This document shows positions 43,805-54,605 of a DNA stretch of 64,000 nucleotides, piece after piece; position 1 is the first letter of the stretch; each line of letters starts with the position of its first letter. The notes beneath the pieces were generated by a model. The model was given only the letters and a program-made list of their open reading frames with translations. It did no database searches and was not told where the DNA came from. This stretch comes from Desulfotignum sp. (GTDB lineage: Bacteria > Desulfobacterota > Desulfobacteria > Desulfobacterales > Desulfobacteraceae). Where the stretch lies: assembly GCA_011389555.1 (NCBI GenBank), contig JAABUD010000289.1:1-64000 (forward strand), written 5' to 3'. A program made the translations under genes and the position numbers.

Positions 43805-45055
43805 TTAAGATTCCCGGGTCTTGGGCCGGTTCAGTTCCAGTTCCTGGGGAAATACCGGCAGATACCGGTATGTAACGGCAATCAGGATGATGCCGTAAGC
43901 CACCGGCAGAATGGTGGTGGCCACTTCCTGCCAGGACGGGAGATACAATGCCCAGGTATCAAAAGGCATCACTGGAACCGCCATGATCTGGAGCACCATG
44001 ACCCAGCGGTTGAGACACACGCCGATCACCGCAAGAACAATGGCTACCAGCCTGAAGGTGGGATTTTCCCGGGTGGACCTGTTGATGAGCAGAAGGCCGG
44101 GGACCACGCCGCAGACAATGATCTCCGCCACCAGAATCCAATACCCGTAAAACCCGTTGTTGGTATAGAAATGACTCAGTTCGAATCCCAGCCCCGGAGC
44201 GGTGTAGTAAGCCCAGTACCAGGTATCGATCAGCTTGGCGATCATATAGGTGACGATCATCCATCCGGATATTTTGGCCAGCAGGTGAATCACATTGTCC
44301 TTGACCAGTTTTTTTCCGGTCACCGCCTCGGTGATCCGGGTGACCAGCAGGGTGAAGCAGGGACCGAAAGCCGCCGCCGACCAGGTGAACAGAAAAAACG
44401 ACCAGGGCCAGATCAACAACCCTTCCCGGACCGCAAACGGCCGGCCGTACATCACACCGGCCACCCCGCCCAAAGACCCCTGGTGAAAAAAGGACAAAAA
44501 CGCACCCGTGGCGGCAAAAACAGCCATGACACCGTGCATGTTATGGGCCAGATGATGGAAAAACGGCACCTTGTTGAGCTGCCGGTTTTCCAGGATATTG
44601 GGAATGAACTCAATGGTCAGCACCGCAAAATAGCAGGACAGGCAGAACGCCACTTCCGTGAGCATGGAATGGACGTTGGCGTGCCAGAAAATAAACCATC
44701 CCCGCAACGGCTGGCCGATATCGATGGCCAGGATCAGCAGGGCCGAGCTGTAACAGATGAACCCGATGATCACGGCAAAGTTGATAATGTTTTTCAGTTC
44801 ATCAATTTTAAAAATATATTTGAGCAGTCCGGTAAAAAACGCCCCGCCACCCACGGCGATGACTGCCAAATCCGCCCAGATCCACAGGGCAAACCCGTAA
44901 TAATCGTTCATGTTGGTCTGGTTCAACCCCTTGAACCAGCACAGCAGCATGGCATAGACGCCCCAGAGCAGGACTGCCCCCACAATGGCGATCCCCAGCA
45001 TGAATTTGGGGAATGAACACCGTTTTGCACCTTCAGGTATTAATGCAGCATCCAT
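43805..45055 (-). CDS. qrcD: Qrc menaquinone reductase, membrane subunit QrcD (NrfD/PsrC family)
   Basis: 416 residues from the ATG at 45055 (GGAG upstream; a TTG six bases earlier is rejected). About ten membrane helices, NrfD family. It holds the quinone-reducing site and takes electrons from QrcC. Marks include GQPLRGWFIFWHANVHSM near the middle and WPWSFFLFTWSAAAFGP. In the Desulfovibrio complex QrcABCD, periplasmic hydrogenases and formate dehydrogenases reduce TpIc3, which reduces QrcA and then the menaquinone pool for sulfate respiration. Confidence 0.93.
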   Translation of the reverse strand: MDAALIPEGAKRCSFPKFMLGIAIVGAVLLWGVYAMLLCWFKGLNQTNMNDYYGFALWIWADLAVIAVGGGAFFTGLLKYIFKIDELKNIINFAVIIGFICYSSALLILAIDIGQPLRGWFIFWHANVHSMLTEVAFCLSCYFAVLTIEFIPNILENRQLNKVPFFHHLAHNMHGVMAVFAATGAFLSFFHQGSLGGVAGVMYGRPFAVREGLLIWPWSFFLFTWSAAAFGPCFTLLVTRITEAVTGKKLVKDNVIHLLAKISGWMIVTYMIAKLIDTWYWAYYTAPGLGFELSHFYTNNGFYGYWILVAEIIVCGVVPGLLLINRSTRENPTFRLVAIVLAVIGVCLNRWVMVLQIMAVPVMPFDTWALYLPSWQEVATTILPVAYGIILIAVTYRYLPVFPQELELNRPKTRES

Positions 45056-45088
45056 ATTCAATTACTCCTCACATCGATGTTGAATTTT

Positions 45089-45946
45089 CTATTCATGGGA
45101 AGCCGACCCATAGATACTCTTCACTTTGTCCCATTCCCCGTCCAGATAGTGGTCTCCCAGCTTGCGGATCCATTCCCGGTCAGACATGTAATACACTTTG
45201 GGATTGGTTCCGAGCCGTTCCAGCAGCCGGAACACTCTGGGATTTCTCGATTTCCCCACCACATCCGGATTCAGCGGGTCGGGATGCGGATCCGGTTTGA
45301 CAATCTGGTGAACCTTGTGAGAGGGATTGTTCAAATCACCGAAAATAATGGCGCCGGCCGGACACGCCGTGGTGCAGGCGGTCTGGTATGCGTCTTCCGC
45401 AATGTCATCCACGCCGTCTGCATAGGCTTTTTCCCGGGCCAGCTGATACCGGTGATAGCAGAAACTGCATTTTTCCACCACCCCCCGCATCCGCGGCGAT
45501 ACATTGGGGCTCAGATATTTTTCCATGCCTTCGGGCCATACCGGATCCCACCAGTTGAAATACCGGGCGTGATACGGGCAGGCCGCCATGCAGTACCGGC
45601 ATCCAAAACACCGGGTATAAATCTGGGAAACGATACCGGTATCATATCCATAATCGGTCGCGGTTGCCGGACAAACCGACACACAGGGAGAGTGCCCGTG
45701 GTCTCCTTTTCCGCCGCAGTGCTGGCAGGGTCTTGGCAGGTATGCCACATCCGTGTCCGGAAACGGTTTGTTGTTGGACAGCCTGTAAACCCGCATCCAG
45801 GTGATGCTGTCCTTTTTGTCGGACTCATCCTCCTTGAACGGCACATTGTTTTCCGCCATGCAGGACACTGTGCAGGTACCGCATCCGGTGCATTTGTCCA
45901 GATCGATCACCATGCCGTATTTGTGTGCTTTTTTATCTTGTATCAT
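45089..45946 (-). CDS. qrcC: Qrc menaquinone reductase, iron-sulfur subunit QrcC
   Basis: 285 residues. Four cluster motifs: CTGCGTCTVSC, CQHCGGKGDHGHSPCVSVCP, CFGCRYCMAACP and the split CSFC...CTTACP. This is the usual four-cubane layout of a PsrB/DmsB-like electron wire. It links QrcA/QrcB to the membrane subunit QrcD. AGAGG precedes the ATG. There is no Tat signal; it is presumably exported with QrcB, which has one. Confidence 0.93.
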   Translation of the reverse strand: MIQDKKAHKYGMVIDLDKCTGCGTCTVSCMAENNVPFKEDESDKKDSITWMRVYRLSNNKPFPDTDVAYLPRPCQHCGGKGDHGHSPCVSVCPATATDYGYDTGIVSQIYTRCFGCRYCMAACPYHARYFNWWDPVWPEGMEKYLSPNVSPRMRGVVEKCSFCYHRYQLAREKAYADGVDDIAEDAYQTACTTACPAGAIIFGDLNNPSHKVHQIVKPDPHPDPLNPDVVGKSRNPRVFRLLERLGTNPKVYYMSDREWIRKLGDHYLDGEWDKVKSIYGSASHE

Positions 45947-45978
45947 CAGAACCTCTTTGAAAATTTGTCCACATCCGT

Positions 45979-48108
45979 TTAGGCCTTTGAAATTCCGGCG
46001 GTGATGCCAAAAGCGGCATCCATGCCCGATTCCGGCTCGATTTTCGGTGAAATCAATGCATTGATATTCACCCCTTTGCCTGACACATACCGGTTGTCCA
46101 GCGTGTGCCCAAGGCCTTTGACCATCCCGATGACACCGGGCATGATCCCGTCATTGAAATGTACCCGCACACGGACGGATCCCGCAGGGGTCTGAAGCAT
46201 GGCAAACCCGCCGTTTTTCAGGTTTTTGGCGGATTGGGGATTGATTTCCACAAACATGTCCGTTCCCTTGATAATCCGGTCGGACACGGTTTTGATGGCA
46301 AAAGGAGATGGCGCCGGTACCGTGGGCGGTACCCGGAAATGGTCGATGGGGATCAGGGTGAATTCCAGATCACCCTCCGGTTTGACGGTGTCTGGATTGT
46401 CTGCCAGAAAACCGAAATCTGTGTCCACCGATCCAGACGGCGGATTTTTTGAAAGCACCACATGGCCTTTTCGAACCAGCGGCCCCCAGATTCTGCCGGT
46501 CACCTGTTCAAGGCAGGCATCATAGCTGTCCCAGGCAAAACTGCGGGCCATGGCGCCGTTCAGGGCCCTGGCCATCCCAATCACCACATCCCCGGGACTG
46601 CGGGTGTCAAACACCGGTTTCACCATGGGTTTGGAAAGTCCCACCACGGTTGAAGCCAGACCGGCCTTTGACGGCACATCCTCCATCCGTTCCAGAAACG
46701 TGGATACCGGCAGAATCACATCCGATCCCATGGCGGTTTCATCCATGAACGATGAAATACAGACCTTGAACGGGATTTTTTCAAATGCGGCCCGGACCCG
46801 GGACGGATCATTCAGGGCAAAACAGGGATTGGCATTGTAGACCAGCAGCGCTTTTACCGGGGATTCATTCGAAGAATCGACCCGGGTCACCAGTTCCTGG
46901 ACCGAAGCGGCCAGAGGGTCTGCACCGGAACCTTTCCGGGCGATATCATCCTGGACCGGGTCCGGAAAGTTCAGGTAATTCGGGATCGGTTTGACAAACG
47001 TCCCGCCCGGTTTATTGACATTGCCGCTCAGGCAGTTCAGCGTATGAATCGCTGCAAATTCTTTGAGATTCTGGGCCCCTTCGCCGCGCCCTTTCCCCGG
47101 CAGGGCCACAGGCATTTTTGCCCTGGCAAACGCGACGGCGGTTTTCCGGATGTCTGACGCACGGATGCCGGTCACCGCAGCAACCTTGTCCAGCGGATAT
47201 TCTTTTTGTACCATGGCATTGAACCGCATGAATCCGCCCTTGAATTTTTTAGCGAATACCGGATCAAACAGATTTTCCTTGAGCAGAACCGCGCACATGC
47301 CCATGGCCAGGTCTGCCTCGGTACCTGGATTGACGGGAATCCATCGGTTGGCATTGGCCGCGGTACTGGACAGCCGGGGCTCGATCTGAACCAGAGTGGC
47401 CTCCCGCTGTTTTCGGGTACCCATGGCCTGGATACACGCCACAGGAGATCCCCACCCGTCAATCAGTCCGGCGCCGAAACTCAAAATATAATCAGAATGA
47501 TCGATATCGAAACCCAGGGTATATTCGTCGCCGTGCAGGGTTTTCGCCGTCCGGACCAGCCAGGATTCAAGATCGGGCATGGTCAGGTAGTTGGGAGAAC
47601 CGAATGCGGCCATAAAATGTTTGAACAGGCCCGGCACCGACCCCTGGTCCGAACCGGTGATACAGGCCAGGGATTCCGGGTTCTGATCGTTTCGAAGTTC
47701 ACCCAGCCGGTCCGCCACCAGGGGGAGGGCTTCATCCCAGGAGATGGGCACAAACCGGTCATTGACTTTTTTCATCGGCGATTTCACCCGGCTGGGATCA
47801 TACAGGTATTGAAGCCCGGAAATCCCATGCAGGCAGACCCCGCCGTTGTTCACCGGATAGGGGTCCAGGCCTTCGATTTTTACCGGCCGGCCGTCAATTT
47901 TTCTCACCGTGATACCGCAGGCACCGGGACACAGATGGCATACGGTGCGGTCATAGGATACTTCTCCATCAGGCGGGACCGGTGTCCAGGGCCAGTTCTG
48001 GGTCCAGATGGAAAAATCATCTGTGAGTTTGGCTCCTACAGGGGAGATGGCAATGCCTGCAACTGCGCCGATTCCCAATCCCAAGAAGCTTCGTCTGTCA
48101 ACTTTCAT
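45979..48108 (-). CDS. qrcB: Qrc menaquinone reductase, molybdopterin-oxidoreductase-like subunit QrcB
   Basis: 709 residues from the ATG at 48108, which has GAGG at good distance. A Tat signal (DRRSFLGLGIGAVAGIA) sends it to the periplasm. The N-terminal cluster motif CHLCPGACGITVRKIDG...GVCLHG is present, then the DMSO reductase-type fold (LPVSTFLERMED etc.). In the characterised Qrc this subunit carries an Fe-S cluster but no molybdenum, acting as structure and wire. Part of qrcABCD. Confidence 0.93.
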   Translation of the reverse strand: MKVDRRSFLGLGIGAVAGIAISPVGAKLTDDFSIWTQNWPWTPVPPDGEVSYDRTVCHLCPGACGITVRKIDGRPVKIEGLDPYPVNNGGVCLHGISGLQYLYDPSRVKSPMKKVNDRFVPISWDEALPLVADRLGELRNDQNPESLACITGSDQGSVPGLFKHFMAAFGSPNYLTMPDLESWLVRTAKTLHGDEYTLGFDIDHSDYILSFGAGLIDGWGSPVACIQAMGTRKQREATLVQIEPRLSSTAANANRWIPVNPGTEADLAMGMCAVLLKENLFDPVFAKKFKGGFMRFNAMVQKEYPLDKVAAVTGIRASDIRKTAVAFARAKMPVALPGKGRGEGAQNLKEFAAIHTLNCLSGNVNKPGGTFVKPIPNYLNFPDPVQDDIARKGSGADPLAASVQELVTRVDSSNESPVKALLVYNANPCFALNDPSRVRAAFEKIPFKVCISSFMDETAMGSDVILPVSTFLERMEDVPSKAGLASTVVGLSKPMVKPVFDTRSPGDVVIGMARALNGAMARSFAWDSYDACLEQVTGRIWGPLVRKGHVVLSKNPPSGSVDTDFGFLADNPDTVKPEGDLEFTLIPIDHFRVPPTVPAPSPFAIKTVSDRIIKGTDMFVEINPQSAKNLKNGGFAMLQTPAGSVRVRVHFNDGIMPGVIGMVKGLGHTLDNRYVSGKGVNINALISPKIEPESGMDAAFGITAGISKA

Positions 48109-48149
48109 ATGTAACATCCTCTATAAAGTTTTCAATTCTTGTGTATGGT

Positions 48150-48821
48150 CTATTTGTGGCATTGGAAGCAATAGCCTTTATGGCCGGTTTCCTCTTCATG
48201 ACACACTGCGCAGTCATTCATTTTCATGCGGTCCCAGGGATTTTTCTTGAGGCCCCAGATGTTTTTCCCCCAGATATCCCGGCTGTAGCCGGTGAGTCTG
48301 TTTTCCTCGTAGGGCCGGGACGTTCTGGTTTCCTCGATGGGGCCGTGGCAGGTTTTACAATCCATATCCGCTGCATTGATATGGGCTGCGTGGGAAAAGA
48401 AAACGCAATCCGGCTGTTGGGCATACACATACCAGGGAACTTCTTTTTCTTTTGCCACATATTCGGCCGCGAATATGGCCTCGTCGATCGTCTCGCCCAT
48501 GGGCTCATCCGTGTGGCAGTCCAGACAGGATGCCATTTTGGGAATCCCTGAAAACGTGCCGTCTTCCCGGAGATAATGGCAGGATTCACAATCCCCGGTT
48601 TCCTCCACATGGAGCACGTGGTCGAAATTAAAAGGTTGCTCGTGTTTGGAATAGAGCAGTTTGGGGAACAGGAGCCAGCCGGACAGGAAGCATATCAGAA
48701 ATGCCACAATAAAAAAAATGACACCCAGCCCCAGGCCTGTGTCATTTTTCGGGTCTTCGGCAGTGCCTGCTGTCGCACCCTCCATGGAACCGTGTTCAGT
48801 TTTGTTTTCGATTTCACTCAT
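48150..48821 (-). CDS. qrcA: Qrc menaquinone reductase, multiheme cytochrome c subunit QrcA
   Basis: 223 residues from the ATG at 48821, favoured by GGGG five bases upstream; two in-frame Met lie further up. A single N-terminal membrane anchor (LGVIFFIVAFLICFLSGWLL) is followed by a periplasmic domain with five CxxCH sites: CESCH, CLDCH, CKTCH, CAVCH, CFQCH. The Desulfovibrio QrcA was reported to have six hemes, so one site is missing or changed here. It takes electrons from TpIc3. First gene of qrcABCD; a consensus promoter lies upstream. Confidence 0.92.
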   Translation of the reverse strand: MSEIENKTEHGSMEGATAGTAEDPKNDTGLGLGVIFFIVAFLICFLSGWLLFPKLLYSKHEQPFNFDHVLHVEETGDCESCHYLREDGTFSGIPKMASCLDCHTDEPMGETIDEAIFAAEYVAKEKEVPWYVYAQQPDCVFFSHAAHINAADMDCKTCHGPIEETRTSRPYEENRLTGYSRDIWGKNIWGLKKNPWDRMKMNDCAVCHEEETGHKGYCFQCHK

Positions 48822-48902
48822 GAAAACCCCATCCATGTTAAAAAGTTGATGTTTACTATACCCTTTTAATCCAGGCACTTGCCGGGATATATCTGTTTGC
48901 AG

Positions 48903-49084: not shown

Positions 49085-49918
49085 TCACCCGTAGCTGTGA
49101 AGGCCGGACAGCAGAAAATTGACCCCGAAATAGGTGAACATGACCGCCATGAACCCGATGATGGACACGAGCGCCAGATTCCGGCCGTGCCAGCCCCGCA
49201 TCAGTCGCAGGTGCAAAAAAATGGCATACACGAACCAGGTGATCAGAGACCAGGTTTCCTTGGGATCCCAGGACCAGTATCTGCCCCAGGCGGAATTGGC
49301 CCATACCGCCCCGGTGATGATTCCGATGGTCAGAAAAAGAAAGCCGAACACCACCATCTGATAGGTGAGTTCATCGATCACGTCCCCGTCCGGCAGTCGG
49401 GAAAAAATCGAGTTTGGATCCGGTTGCCCGGGTTTCACATAATAGGTGAGGCTGAGTCCGAATGCCAGGGCAAACCCGGCGTATCCCAGAAAGCAGGTCA
49501 CCACATGGGCAATGAGCCAGTTGCTTTTCAGGGCCGGAATCAACGGATTGATCTTGGCGCTGATACCCGGATCAAACGAGGCATAGGCAATGGATAAAAA
49601 TATCAAAGGGGATACAAACACCCCGAATCCCTGTTCCTTGTATTTGATCTCCACATACAGATACAATACGGCCATGGTCCAGGAAAAAAAGATCAGGGAT
49701 TCGTACATATTGGAAAACGGGGCCCGGCCGAATCCCAGCTGATACGACTCCATCCATCGCAGTCCGATCCCGATCGTATTCAGAAGCAAGCCAAGGGCCA
49801 TCACATAAAAGCCGGCGGTCCCAAGTATTTTTTTCTTGAAAGCAAACGCCCCGGCATAACACACCATTGCCAGGCCGTACAAAAAAGTGGTCAAAGACAA
49901 CGCAAACGCACTGTTCAT
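49085..49918 (-). CDS. ccsB: Cytochrome c biogenesis protein CcsB/CcsA type (heme handling)
   Basis: 277 residues from the ATG at 49918, right after the resB stop with AAGG in the end of resB. About eight membrane helices. The tryptophan-rich heme-binding WWD motif reads GRYWSWDPKETWSLITW, with conserved His on flanking loops. With ResB it forms system II, which exports heme and joins it to CxxCH of periplasmic cytochromes such as QrcA. Naming differs between lineages (CcsA, CcsB, ResC). Confidence 0.92.
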   Translation of the reverse strand: MNSAFALSLTTFLYGLAMVCYAGAFAFKKKILGTAGFYVMALGLLLNTIGIGLRWMESYQLGFGRAPFSNMYESLIFFSWTMAVLYLYVEIKYKEQGFGVFVSPLIFLSIAYASFDPGISAKINPLIPALKSNWLIAHVVTCFLGYAGFALAFGLSLTYYVKPGQPDPNSIFSRLPDGDVIDELTYQMVVFGFLFLTIGIITGAVWANSAWGRYWSWDPKETWSLITWFVYAIFLHLRLMRGWHGRNLALVSIIGFMAVMFTYFGVNFLLSGLHSYG

Positions 49919-49919
49919 G

Positions 49920-51296
49920 TTATTCACCCTTGTTTAATTGATTTTCCAGACGGGTTGCCATTTGTTTGAGTTTCAATGTCATGTTCCGGCTGTTGCGGTT
50001 GGATTTTCCGGACAGAACCACCCGGGTCTGACCGGCATCCTGTGGTGCCAGTGTGAGAAGAAACGATTGATGGGACATGAAAAAAGTGACCCAGCATCCC
50101 AGGATCATCAGAATGAACCCGGTGTACACATACCAGACCCCCGGATCTCTGGTGACCTGAAGCCCGGTATAATATCGTTTTTCAAAATCCGTGGCCACAA
50201 ATGTGAACCGGCCTTTTCGCATCTTGTCAAACGTGGGGAACCGGGTCGGCAGCCCGATCTGAAAACCGGTTTCTCCGGTCAGGGTCACCAGTCCGAAAAA
50301 GGTTTCCCCCAGGTCATGACCCCGGAACTCGAAATGGGGAAGAAATCCCTGAAGCGTAAATTGTCCTGCGCCGTCCGGCAGGTCGATGGTTTCGCCGATC
50401 CGGATGTCGCGGACGGTGTCTGCACCGCTTTGATTGTCAACCATCTGCATTTTCACCGTGTCAGGTTCAGCCGTGCCGTAAGAGGATTGAAAGATATTGA
50501 TTCCCTTGTATCGCAGCGGATGGTTGACCCGGATATCGGTGGTAACGCTTTCCTGGCCGTCTTCAATGATCGTGAGATTTGAACGAAACTCTTCCGGCGC
50601 CCCGGAATCATAAAATGACACCTCGAACTCATTGCACCGGATAATGAAATCCAGTGGTATGGGTTCTCTGGTTTTGCTGTCAAACACCTGTCCGATCTGA
50701 TTTCCTTCATCGATCCGCACATTGGCCCTGAATCCGAACATCGCACCGATCAGGGCACCGGCCAGAAGAAGCAGCACGCTGGCATGCACCACAAACACCC
50801 CTAACCGGGTCCAGCGTCCTTTTTCCGTATACAAATAAGTGGTCTGGCCATCGGTTTGCCGGATGACCGGCCCCGCCTGTCCGGCAAGCCATCGCTCGCA
50901 GGGGTCAAGCAACTGTCCGGCCGAAGATGTCGTATGTATGGTCTGACTGGATTTTGACTTCAGAAACCGGTTGACATTGAACCGGACCTGGTCCGGAAAA
51001 ATGGTTTTCCACAACAGGGACAACCGCTCCACGGAACAGACCGTGATGTTGATGCACAACAGCAGCAGCAGCAGCAGAAACCACCAGGCATGATACATGT
51101 CATCGATATCAAACACCTGAATCAGGTTGTAGATTCCCTGCCCGTAAAGATCGATATACTGCCGGGGAGATCCGTTCTGAAGCACCACCGTCCCGATAAT
51201 CGAGGTCACTGCCAGCAGGACCAGAAGATACACGGTCAATTTGATGGAACAAAAAAATACCCAGATCTGACGGGAAATACCGTCCTTGTTTTTCAA
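49920..51296 (-). CDS. resB: ResB-like cytochrome c biogenesis protein
   Basis: 458 residues from a TTG at 51296 that has GGAGG six bases before it; the ATG in between is out of frame. Three N-terminal helices (VYLLVLLAVTSIIGTV, AWWFLLLLLLLCINITV, LGVFVVHASVLLLLAGALIG), a large periplasmic domain (~195-370) and one C-terminal helix (VYTGFILMILGCWVTFFM). Partner of the WWD-motif protein encoded next; the pair matures c-type cytochromes by system II. Confidence 0.92.
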   Translation of the reverse strand: MKNKDGISRQIWVFFCSIKLTVYLLVLLAVTSIIGTVVLQNGSPRQYIDLYGQGIYNLIQVFDIDDMYHAWWFLLLLLLLCINITVCSVERLSLLWKTIFPDQVRFNVNRFLKSKSSQTIHTTSSAGQLLDPCERWLAGQAGPVIRQTDGQTTYLYTEKGRWTRLGVFVVHASVLLLLAGALIGAMFGFRANVRIDEGNQIGQVFDSKTREPIPLDFIIRCNEFEVSFYDSGAPEEFRSNLTIIEDGQESVTTDIRVNHPLRYKGINIFQSSYGTAEPDTVKMQMVDNQSGADTVRDIRIGETIDLPDGAGQFTLQGFLPHFEFRGHDLGETFFGLVTLTGETGFQIGLPTRFPTFDKMRKGRFTFVATDFEKRYYTGLQVTRDPGVWYVYTGFILMILGCWVTFFMSHQSFLLTLAPQDAGQTRVVLSGKSNRNSRNMTLKLKQMATRLENQLNKGE

Positions 51297-51467: not shown

Positions 51468-53318
51468 TCACTGTTTTTTGGATACGCCTTCAACATACCG
51501 GTGAATGCGCAAAAAAGGCACATACATTGAATCATAGGTCTGGATGTGTTCGATCAGCCAGTCCCGGAGGGAAACAATGGCCTCCAGACTCAGGTTGTTG
51601 ACATCTTCCGTAATTTCCCGGCGCAGGGTCAGGGCATTCCGGACAAATCGCCGATGGTATCTGGCGTGGATATCCCGGTCCGGATATTCCCGCTTCTTGA
51701 GTATTTTTTCCTCTGTTGCAAAATACAGTTTGCCATAATCATTGATTTCCGTAATGACATTGGCAATCGCCTTGGGTTCCGCTTTGTTCTGTTTCAGATC
51801 GATCAGTTCATTGAACAGGTCGAACATTTTTTTCTGGTGGGTGTCGATCTCTGCCACATCCACACTGAATCCGGCATGCCATTCGACCTTGAGATCGTTT
51901 TGGGTCATATGTCTCTCCTTGATAGATCGTTGAATTGTGTCAAGCAGTCGGGTATGGATATTGTCAAATCCGCCATTGGACATGATCAGCACCAGATCGC
52001 GGGAAATCAGCCGGGAAGGCAGAAAAGACAGCAGCCCGGTTGTGTCGGGGAAATGATGGGCTTCCACCCCGAGGGCATTGATATCCGATACCAGTTTTTC
52101 AGGGGAAAACCGCTCGTTTTCAGGTATGGTTTTTTTGACGGCCGGGTTGCAGATACACACCATATCTGCGTCGGTAAATGCCGCGGGATAGGTGTCCTGG
52201 AAAAAACGGCGCATGGACGTGTTGGTGCGGGGTTCAAACACGGCAATGACCCGGCCCGGATGGTAAAACGGTTTCACTGCCCGGATGGTGGCTGCCACGG
52301 CAGACGGATGATGGGCAAAATCATCCATGACGGTGATGCCGTGTTTCACGCCCCGGACGTCCTGGCGGCGCCGGACACCGGAAAACGATGCCATGGCCTG
52401 TTTCACCGTATCCGTGGGGATGCCCGACGTGTGTGCGGCCGCAGCACAGGCCAGAAAATTCATCAGATTGTGATGGCCGGGCAGCCGGGTTTCGATCTCA
52501 TAATCGGATTCAGGTCCCCGAATCCGAGCCCGGGTTCGATGATCCGCCTGAACCAGATCCGCATATGTCCAGTCCCCCCCTGTCCCGTAAAAAATCGGTT
52601 CAGCACTCAGGTCTGCCAGGATATCCATCAGATGCGGGCTGTCCTTGCAGGCGATCACACAGCGGGTGTCTGCCACTTTTGCCGCCAGTTTCGCAAAAAC
52701 CGATTTGACATGATCCAGATCCCTGAAAATATCGGCATGGTCAAACTCCACCCCGGTCATGATCGTGATAAAGGGATCATAGTGCATGAATTTAGGCCCT
52801 TTGTCAAAAAAGGCCGTGTCATACTCATCCCCTTCAATCACCAGGTATTCTCCGTTGCCGATCCGGAATCCGGACTGGTAATCCTTTAAAATCCCGCCGA
52901 TCATGAAACCGGGATCCAGTCCCGCCTTCATGAGAATATGGGCCATCATGGCAGCGGTCGTGGTTTTGCCGTGGGTACCGGTGACCAGAATGATCTTTTT
53001 ATCGGCTGCGACAAACCGATTCACCGCCTGGGGCATGGACAGATAGGGAATCTGCCGGTCCAGCACGGCACTTGCTTCAGGGTTGTCCCGGGTAACCGCA
53101 TTGCCGATGATCACCAGATCCGGTGAATGATCCAGATGGGCCGGATCAAACCCGTTGAACAGGTGGATATCACTGGCTGCCAGAAAATCGCTCATGGGCG
53201 GATACACATGCTGATCCGATCCGGTCACCTCATACCCCATCTGCTTGAGCATGCAGGCCAGGGTCCCCATGCCCGTCCCGCAGGCCGCCACCAGATGAAT
53301 TTTACGAATCCGGTCCAT
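51468..53318 (-). CDS. mpl: Mpl murein tripeptide ligase fused to a bacteriohemerythrin domain
   Basis: 616 residues. Residues 1-470 are Mpl, UDP-MurNAc:L-Ala-gamma-D-Glu-mDAP ligase: GTGMGTLACMLKQMGYEVTGSD, TGTHGKTTT (P-loop), EGDEYDTAFFD and DDFAHHPSA. It rejoins recycled tripeptide to UDP-MurNAc. Residues ~471-616 are a hemerythrin four-helix domain: IDTHQ, YFATEE, HARYH and HIQTYD. One iron His (HFxxEE) is Tyr by a single base. At the joint the DNA reads AAGGAGAGACAT-ATG, a full ribosome site and start (51908) kept in frame, so a free hemerythrin of 146 residues can also be made. It looks like a recent loss of the mpl stop codon. hemL lies three bases upstream. Confidence 0.88.
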   Translation of the reverse strand: MDRIRKIHLVAACGTGMGTLACMLKQMGYEVTGSDQHVYPPMSDFLAASDIHLFNGFDPAHLDHSPDLVIIGNAVTRDNPEASAVLDRQIPYLSMPQAVNRFVAADKKIILVTGTHGKTTTAAMMAHILMKAGLDPGFMIGGILKDYQSGFRIGNGEYLVIEGDEYDTAFFDKGPKFMHYDPFITIMTGVEFDHADIFRDLDHVKSVFAKLAAKVADTRCVIACKDSPHLMDILADLSAEPIFYGTGGDWTYADLVQADHRTRARIRGPESDYEIETRLPGHHNLMNFLACAAAAHTSGIPTDTVKQAMASFSGVRRRQDVRGVKHGITVMDDFAHHPSAVAATIRAVKPFYHPGRVIAVFEPRTNTSMRRFFQDTYPAAFTDADMVCICNPAVKKTIPENERFSPEKLVSDINALGVEAHHFPDTTGLLSFLPSRLISRDLVLIMSNGGFDNIHTRLLDTIQRSIKERHMTQNDLKVEWHAGFSVDVAEIDTHQKKMFDLFNELIDLKQNKAEPKAIANVITEINDYGKLYFATEEKILKKREYPDRDIHARYHRRFVRNALTLRREITEDVNNLSLEAIVSLRDWLIEHIQTYDSMYVPFLRIHRYVEGVSKKQ

Positions 53319-53321
53319 ACA

Positions 53322-54605
53322 CTAAATTTCCGCCATCACCGCTTTTGCCGCGGCAATGGTGTCATCAACGTCTTTTTCCGTGTGGGCCAGCGAGACAAAA
53401 CAGGCCTCGAACTGAGACGGCGCCAGGTAAATGCCTTTTGCCAGCATTCCCCGGTAAAACGCGGCAAACCGGTCCAGATCACTGGTTTTGGCATCTTCAA
53501 AATCATACACGGTCCGATCCGTGAAAAAGAACCCGGCCATGGAGCCCACATGACCGGACTGAAACGGAATGCCCGCCTCATCGGCTGCCGCCTTGAACCC
53601 GTTCATCAATTTACGGGTCCGGGCTTCCAGTGTGTCATACACCCCGTCTTTGTGCAGTGCGGTCAAAGTGGCAATGCCGGCCGCCATGGCCAGGGGGTTG
53701 CCGGACAGGGTACCGGCCTGGTACACCGGTCCTGTGGGCGCAATCTGGGACATGATCTCTTTTTTCCCGCCATAGGCACCCACGGGCAGACCGCCCCCGA
53801 TGATTTTACCGAAACAGGTCAGATCCGGTGTGATGCTGAACAGGCCCTGGGCACAATCTTTTGCCACCCGGAATCCGGTCATGACCTCGTCAAAAATCAG
53901 GACCGCCCCATGCGCTTTTGTTTCTTGTCTCAAGGTATCAAGAAACCCTTCTTTGGGGCGCACCATACCCATGTTGCCGGCCACCGGTTCCAGGATCACG
54001 CCGGCCACCTGGTCCCCTTTCTGAGCCATCACCTGCTTGAACCCTTCGATATCATTATAGGGCAGAGACCAGGTGTTTTGAATCACCGACTCCGGCACAC
54101 CGGGGCTGCCGGGAATATTCAGGGTCGCCACCCCGGATCCGGCCGCCACCAGCAGGGTATCGGCATGGCCATGATAACACCCGTCAAACTTGATGATGAT
54201 GTTTCGCCCGGTAACCCCTCTGGCCAGGCGAATGGCACTCATGGTGGCTTCGGTGCCGGAATTGACCATGCGCACCATTTCCACGGAAGGCACCGTTTGG
54301 GTCACCAGTTCCGCCAATCGGGTTTCAAGGTGCGTCGGAGCGCCAAAGCTGGTGCCGCTTTCCAGAACCTGCATCAGGGCCTGGATCACTTCCGGAGGTC
54401 GATGTCCCAGCACCAGCGGCCCCCAGGACATGACATAATCGATATAATCATTTCCGTCCACATCAAAGAGCCGGCTTTGATCCGCCCGTTCGATGAATAT
54501 CGGCTGCCCGCCCACGGCATTGCAGGCCCGGACCGGAGAGTTGACGCCTCCGGGAATCAATTGTTTTGCTTTGTTGAACAAATCAACGGATTTGCTGTTT
54601 TCCAT
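53322..54605 (-). CDS. hemL: Glutamate-1-semialdehyde 2,1-aminomutase
   Basis: 427 residues, standard length. PLP enzyme that makes 5-aminolevulinate in the C5 tetrapyrrole pathway. Seen: [43 protein letters not shown] and PLP-Lys loop [17 protein letters not shown]. It is followed after three bases by mpl. The link to heme demand for the cytochromes nearby is only thematic. Confidence 0.96.

Follow-up and report, generated by a model that had tools for sequence, protein, structure and literature searches.

An Mpl-type ligase gene fused to a hemerythrin-like gene in one Desulfotignum genome, probably by loss of a stop codon

Introduction

In the accessible part of a survey of multidomain hemerythrins (PMC4919030), the hemerythrin domain often forms the C-terminal end of a longer protein, and variation in the iron-ligand residues is reported for these proteins. 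For murein peptide ligase (Mpl), a motif specific to this enzyme, (S/T)AFFDKRSK, is given in the portion of PMC3060825 that was available. The available sections of a work on gene overlaps name the stop-to-sense mutation as the commonest mechanism by which overlaps are made, and report that gaps of about 20 nt nearly abolish termination-reinitiation, with gene pairs varying near 14–15 nt (PMC10666635). Among the open-licence PMC papers listed, none has, by its title, an Mpl-hemerythrin pair as its subject. Among the matches listed, the only open-licence PMC paper that combines hemerythrin, Mpl and peptidoglycan deals with cattle blood.

The window analyzed here is a stretch of 64,000 nucleotides from a metagenome-assembled genome (MAG) of Desulfotignum sp., family Desulfobacteraceae. 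Desulfotignum is an anaerobic sulfate reducer. An initial annotation of the window had described an mpl gene that continues without a stop codon into a hemerythrin gene.

Results

The frame in question is present as described: one open reading frame of 616 codons (51468–53318, minus strand) comprises an Mpl part, a joint and a hemerythrin-fold protein. Pfam domains were found on both parts, with Mur_ligase, Mur_ligase_M and Mur_ligase_C within residues 6–449 and Hemerythrin at residues 488–603. The first part (residues 1–463; 51930..53318, minus strand) was assigned to the UDP-MurNAc:tripeptide ligase type from its Mur ligase domains, its best NCBIfam model (mpl, TIGR01081) and its best PDB match (3hn7). 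The mpl model gave 383.5 bits, 5 bits short of its cutoff of 388.7, and the murC model gave 321.7 bits, below the murC cutoff of 335.1. Because the TIGR01081 score falls short, yet lies well over the murC score, and four of six relatives tested pass the TIGR01081 cutoff, the first part appears to be an Mpl-type ligase and is not called a certified Mpl. The sequence TAFFDKGPK in this part agrees with the Mpl-only motif at 7 of 9 positions. A second, MurC-like copy with 32% identity is encoded elsewhere in the same genome.

The last Mpl codon in relatives corresponds to residue 463, and on this ground the next codon of the window, CGA for R464 (51927..51929, minus strand), was placed at the mpl stop. 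In the joint alignment it is followed by a former intergenic spacer of 18 nt (51909..51926, minus strand) that is now read as SIKERH and keeps the Shine-Dalgarno sequence AAGGAG. Ahead of the internal ATG (51908) stands AAGGAGAGACAT, which is translated as SIKERHM, in agreement with the earlier description of a normal ribosome site that is read through. Thus the joint has seven codons, and the Shine-Dalgarno site of the second gene still lies inside it. The hemerythrin-like part (51468..51908, minus strand) consists of 146 amino acids and a stop, and has its own ATG.

Alignment of the joint in relatives, suggested with the initial annotation as a check, found the genes separate, which that annotation had named as one half of a refutation, the other being a sequencing error in this frame: a TGA stands at the homologous codon in 10 of the 11 readable Desulfotignum genomes besides that of the window (L007–L017). 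L007 and L008 have both genes in the same frame, and both also matched residues 1–616 in the family search, with the TGA lying inside (L036 and L008 are one contig). The joint is GAA TGA TAT ATC AAG GAG AGA CAG ATG in L007, with ACC for ATC in L008, and CAA CGA TCT ATC AAG GAG AGA CAT ATG in the window, so that three of its first nine bases differ between the window and L007 (CAACGATCT versus GAATGATAT). In the eleventh genome, L009 (G063), a 1-nt insertion removes the mpl stop, and mpl ends within the hemerythrin gene in another frame, with an overlap of 14 nt (2912–2925). L010, from the same clade as the window, keeps the stop and has a gap of 22 nt, with its hemerythrin gene out of frame with mpl; the reading frame that preceded the stop loss was therefore deduced from L007 and L008. 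A thirteenth Desulfotignum genome, G070, was excluded, because its mpl-hemerythrin copy (L132, G070:C121) is riddled with small gaps (69 gap openings against L007). This stretch is probably uncorrected assembly.

The family set consisted of 77 mpl loci from 76 of the 86 family genomes, one genome having two loci. Besides G070, nine genomes (G005, G010, G011, G033, G038, G043, G046, G074 and G085) were left out for want of a close Mpl match; their best matches reached 1e-63 at most and seem to be of the MurC type. A hemerythrin-like gene lies behind mpl on the same strand in 74 of the 77 loci, and the two genes are fused in one, that of the window, which rules out a conserved fusion. Among the three loci without a hemerythrin-like gene, the contig edge is reached behind mpl in L143 (G049) and L175 (G018). 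L172 (G001:C5) is the sole family locus in which mpl is present with 1.5 kb behind it and no hemerythrin-like gene. Among the matches listed from 395 genomes of the phylum, with mostly three candidates scored per genome, none but the window's genome matched residues 1–616. The search for other Mpl-hemerythrin fusions proposed at the outset thus found none, and no second lineage with a fusion of the same kind, in the 77 family loci or, among the matches listed, in the 395 phylum genomes.

In the genome-contig set, which overlaps the family set and leans to linked loci because the search patterns came from both parts, a hemerythrin-like gene lies behind mpl in 48 of 80 loci. At least 1 kb of downstream sequence is present in 23 of the other 32, and these 23 loci are outside the family. 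The hemerythrin-like copies were found via their Mpl neighbor, and therefore copies elsewhere would be missed. The upstream neighbor in the window is a class-III aminotransferase gene by Pfam (53322..54605, minus strand), which we take to be hemL-like from our reading of the family, the name being no database label. It precedes mpl, in the same orientation, in 47 of the 48 hemerythrin-bearing loci, the remaining one having no flank. Downstream of the fused frame are resB-like and ccsB-type cytochrome c biogenesis genes (49085..51296, minus strand; Pfam/NCBIfam matches), and a resB-like gene is found downstream in 22 of the 48 loci within the flank present. Further on, the window contains menaquinone reductase genes (43805–48878), with NCBIfam QrcA, QrcB and QrcD above cutoff; the genes for QrcB and QrcD are separated by one for an iron-sulfur protein.

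Members of the family usually have these genes arranged as hemL, mpl, small membrane protein and hemerythrin-like gene. The distance from the end of the Mpl match to the hemerythrin start is 198–211 nt in the seven loci L011–L017, and only 15–28 nt in the clade of the window. The 198–211-nt stretch encodes a small protein, usually 60–70 residues long, which has two hydrophobic segments and carries the signature HxxLYxxxVPxVIYPxFG; it is apparently a two-helix membrane protein. Examples between mpl and the hemerythrin-like gene are L012, L013 and L021, and others. At least 46 distinct copies were found across the family, a lower bound because the search pattern missed L015/L041, L074, L076 and L078. 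In 32 of the 46 copies the small gene starts at −4 relative to the mpl stop, as an ATGA-type overlap. No curated cutoff was reached with three copies in Pfam and two copies in NCBIfam.

The stretch with the small gene is missing from the joint in L001 (the locus of the window), L007, L008, L009 and L010. In the mpl tree, the window and L007, L008, L009 and L010 form one clade with a support of 100/100, inside which the branching order is partly open. When one copy of the small protein was used as the query in a whole-genome search, nothing was found in any of the five clade genomes, and all four genomes outside the clade were matched. L079/L166, of another genus, also has only about 40–55 nt between mpl and the hemerythrin-like gene. 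The simplest history would be one deletion on the stem of the clade, then TGA to CGA in the window lineage, with an independent insertion in L009. In view of the reported near loss of termination-reinitiation at gaps of about 20 nt (PMC10666635, available sections), the 18-nt gap in L007 and L008 would probably allow weak translational coupling at best.

The hemerythrin-like part passed the bacteriohemerythrin model NF033749 (cutoff 84), with 101.7 bits for the domain alone and 96.6 bits within the fusion. Its AlphaFold2 model, made from an alignment of 56 sequences including that of the window, had a pLDDT of 93.5. The best PDB matches by Foldseek were DcrH-Hr and the Methylococcus bacteriohemerythrin, with TM scores of 0.74–0.77 normalized by the model, and the predicted structure is the four-helix bundle of hemerythrins. 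In the alignment with DcrH-Hr, the His of IDxQH corresponds to Gln25 and the His of HFxxEE to Tyr62 (hemerythrin numbering). His24 was ruled out as the IDxQH ligand, since this alignment puts the ligand one residue on. The initial annotation had pointed to the Tyr as the one lost iron ligand; the Tyr is there, but the loss at Gln25 had been missed.

Neither replacement is peculiar to the window. In 56 rows, counted without identical copies and without the partial or broken L011/L040 and L026/L049, position 25 is Gln (53) or Arg (3), position 62 is Tyr (46) or Phe (10), and Glu66, His81, His85, His121 and Asp126 are present throughout. The 74 distinct family rows, which retain partial rows with missing letters scored as gaps, have Gln in 64, Arg in 9 and one gap at position 25, and Tyr in 51, Phe in 18, Leu in 3 and two gaps at position 62; none of the other five ligands varies in the 72 rows that have a letter. 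His was never found at position 25 or 62 in the 73 and 72 family rows, respectively, with a letter there. Tyr62 as a quirk of the fusion is thereby ruled out, and because neither Phe nor Leu can donate to a metal, position 62 is no required ligand. In hemerythrin structures, the five-coordinate iron, which binds O2, has the two His lost here as its terminal ligands. An O2-binding di-iron hemerythrin has five His, Glu and Asp, and two of the five His are replaced here. As these two are never present in the family rows with a letter there, a normal O2-binding di-iron site in this protein is unlikely.

In a search of 291 genomes of the order, an orthologue of at least 125 bits was found in 16 of 18 family genomes among the matches listed, the exceptions being G085, which gave 56 bits, and G049, whose contig stops after mpl. 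Beyond the family, the highest score among the matches listed was 94 bits. Ten of the better sequences from outside the family were compared. Three are canonical, and seven (L116–L121 and L123, which belong to other families within the order) are without the first ligand His, the second being present in three of these seven; no mpl was detected beside these ten genes. Because such sequences partly lack the His and do not lie beside mpl, the loss of the ligand His seems to have been stepwise and older than the link to Mpl.

Pairwise dN/dS within the clade was 0.13–0.20 for mpl and 0.15–0.22 for the hemerythrin part, and between the window and the four sister genomes it was 0.14–0.20 and 0.17–0.22, respectively. 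The dS between the window and L007 was 0.44 (mpl) and 0.39 (hemerythrin part). From these values neither half of the fusion looks decayed, and most of the time that they cover may precede the fusion. For the last approximately 40 residues of Mpl, dN/dS was 0.61 (window-L007), 0.60 (window-L008), 0.32 (L007-L010) and 0.28 (window-L010), with no clear trend. A full-length model of the fusion gave a pLDDT of 83.8 and a pTM of 0.68; it is weak because, in 32 of 35 Mpl rows, the alignment pulled the final 69–87 residues onto the hemerythrin part. In this model, with its misaligned rows, a predicted helix at 454–470 runs into the joint.

Discussion

The adjacent, co-directional mpl and hemerythrin-like genes in all likelihood became one frame when the TGA stop turned into the sense codon CGA by a single change. 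This is probably an ordinary stop-loss event, recent and near-neutral, seen in one MAG. Deletion of the small gene would have left the hemerythrin gene in frame, 18 nt behind the mpl stop, as in the nearest relatives, and the change of TGA to CGA in the window lineage would then have let mpl read through. The resulting chain of 616 residues would be a working Mpl with a C-terminal four-helix bundle, and since the bundle hangs on the C-terminal end of Mpl, the fusion would be tolerated and nearly neutral. Some free 146-residue protein may also be made from the kept Shine-Dalgarno/ATG. The initial annotation had offered a recent stop loss, with one mRNA yielding two products. The stop loss agrees with the separate, TGA-ended genes of the relatives and with the finding of no other fusion; the one ground for the two products is the kept ribosome site of the second gene. 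With three His and both carboxylates kept and two His lost, the bundle would not be a classical O2 carrier. Most likely it would bind a single metal, or a second one weakly or in an altered way, and its role may be structural or that of a partner responding to metal or redox state.

Because one MAG alone carries the fusion, a consensus error or a strain variant would give the same picture. The living population would then have TGA and two separate proteins, and the fused frame would come from base-calling, assembly or strain mixture. The MAG is not clean (3.79 Mb, 317 contigs, 93.66% complete, 5.48% contaminated), and no readable relative has an in-frame fusion. However, the three differences from L007 among nine joint bases are as in a drifting spacer, and not those of one wrong base, and dS to L007 is about 0.4. 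The independent stop disruption in L009 also suggests that the stop is expendable, although L009 could itself hold an error. An artefact is accordingly judged unlikely. If, on the other hand, Mpl and the hemerythrin-like protein already formed a complex, the fusion could have been selected for fixing a 1:1 stoichiometry. The genes adjoin in 74 of the 77 family loci, and short overlaps are enriched among genes for complex subunits in the available sections of PMC10666635. An overlap of this kind joins mpl to the small gene, at −4 nt in 32 of 46 copies. But the overlap outside the clade of the window joins mpl to the small gene and not to the hemerythrin gene, the fusion is in one genome only, and separate production is not given up, because the second gene retains an unbroken Shine-Dalgarno/ATG. 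Selection for the fusion is rather doubtful on this evidence.

The initial annotation had also suggested a new redox-sensing control of wall recycling, in which an O2/NO sensor domain governs Mpl. The hemerythrin fold, five conserved metal ligands of seven and an anaerobic host genus would suit such a sensor, but the fusion is found in one MAG and is not conserved, and both canonical His are replaced in every family row with a letter at position 25 (73) or 62 (72), which makes this proposal highly improbable. Apart from the stop loss that we prefer for the fusion itself, a wider idea is put forward tentatively, as a speculation with a low chance of being right. The Desulfobacteraceae may have a module of Mpl, a small two-helix membrane protein and a half-site hemerythrin-fold bundle, which would sense or store a metal or redox signal and tune peptidoglycan recycling at the membrane. 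The clade of the window would have lost the membrane part, and the fused member would carry Mpl and sensor as one chain.

Read as a stop loss, the joint would be a snapshot of the fusion of operon neighbors, in which an intervening gene was deleted and one stop codon then changed, and the sister genome L009 took the other route of frameshift and overlap. The lead to keep is the conserved cluster of hemL, mpl, small protein and hemerythrin-like gene, and not the fusion event. In 74 of 77 loci, the gene for a cell-wall recycling ligase is followed by one of a hemerythrin-like family in which two iron-ligand His are missing from every family member read, and this offers a testable lead to the role of a half-site hemerythrin in anaerobes.

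Like murein peptide ligase Mpl (TIGR01081; PDB 3hn7, 3eag), the first part has three Mur ligase domains in order, has mpl as its top NCBIfam model and contains a motif, TAFFDKGPK, close to (S/T)AFFDKRSK. It differs from Mpl in scoring below the TIGR01081 cutoff, in having GP for RS in the motif and in carrying a C-terminal hemerythrin part. The second part resembles bacteriohemerythrin and DcrH-Hr (NF033749; PDB 2avk, 2awc, 4xpx) in its predicted four-helix bundle and in keeping E66, H81, H85, H121 and D126, whereas the family has Gln or Arg at the His of IDxQH and Tyr, Phe or Leu at the His of HFxxEE. As in the multidomain hemerythrins described in the accessible part of PMC4919030, the hemerythrin part of the window is C-terminal and its ligand residues are varied. 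The frequent partners in that part of the source are MCP signal, GGDEF and HAMP domains, with 0 mentions of 'mur ligase', and the partner found here is an Mpl-type ligase.
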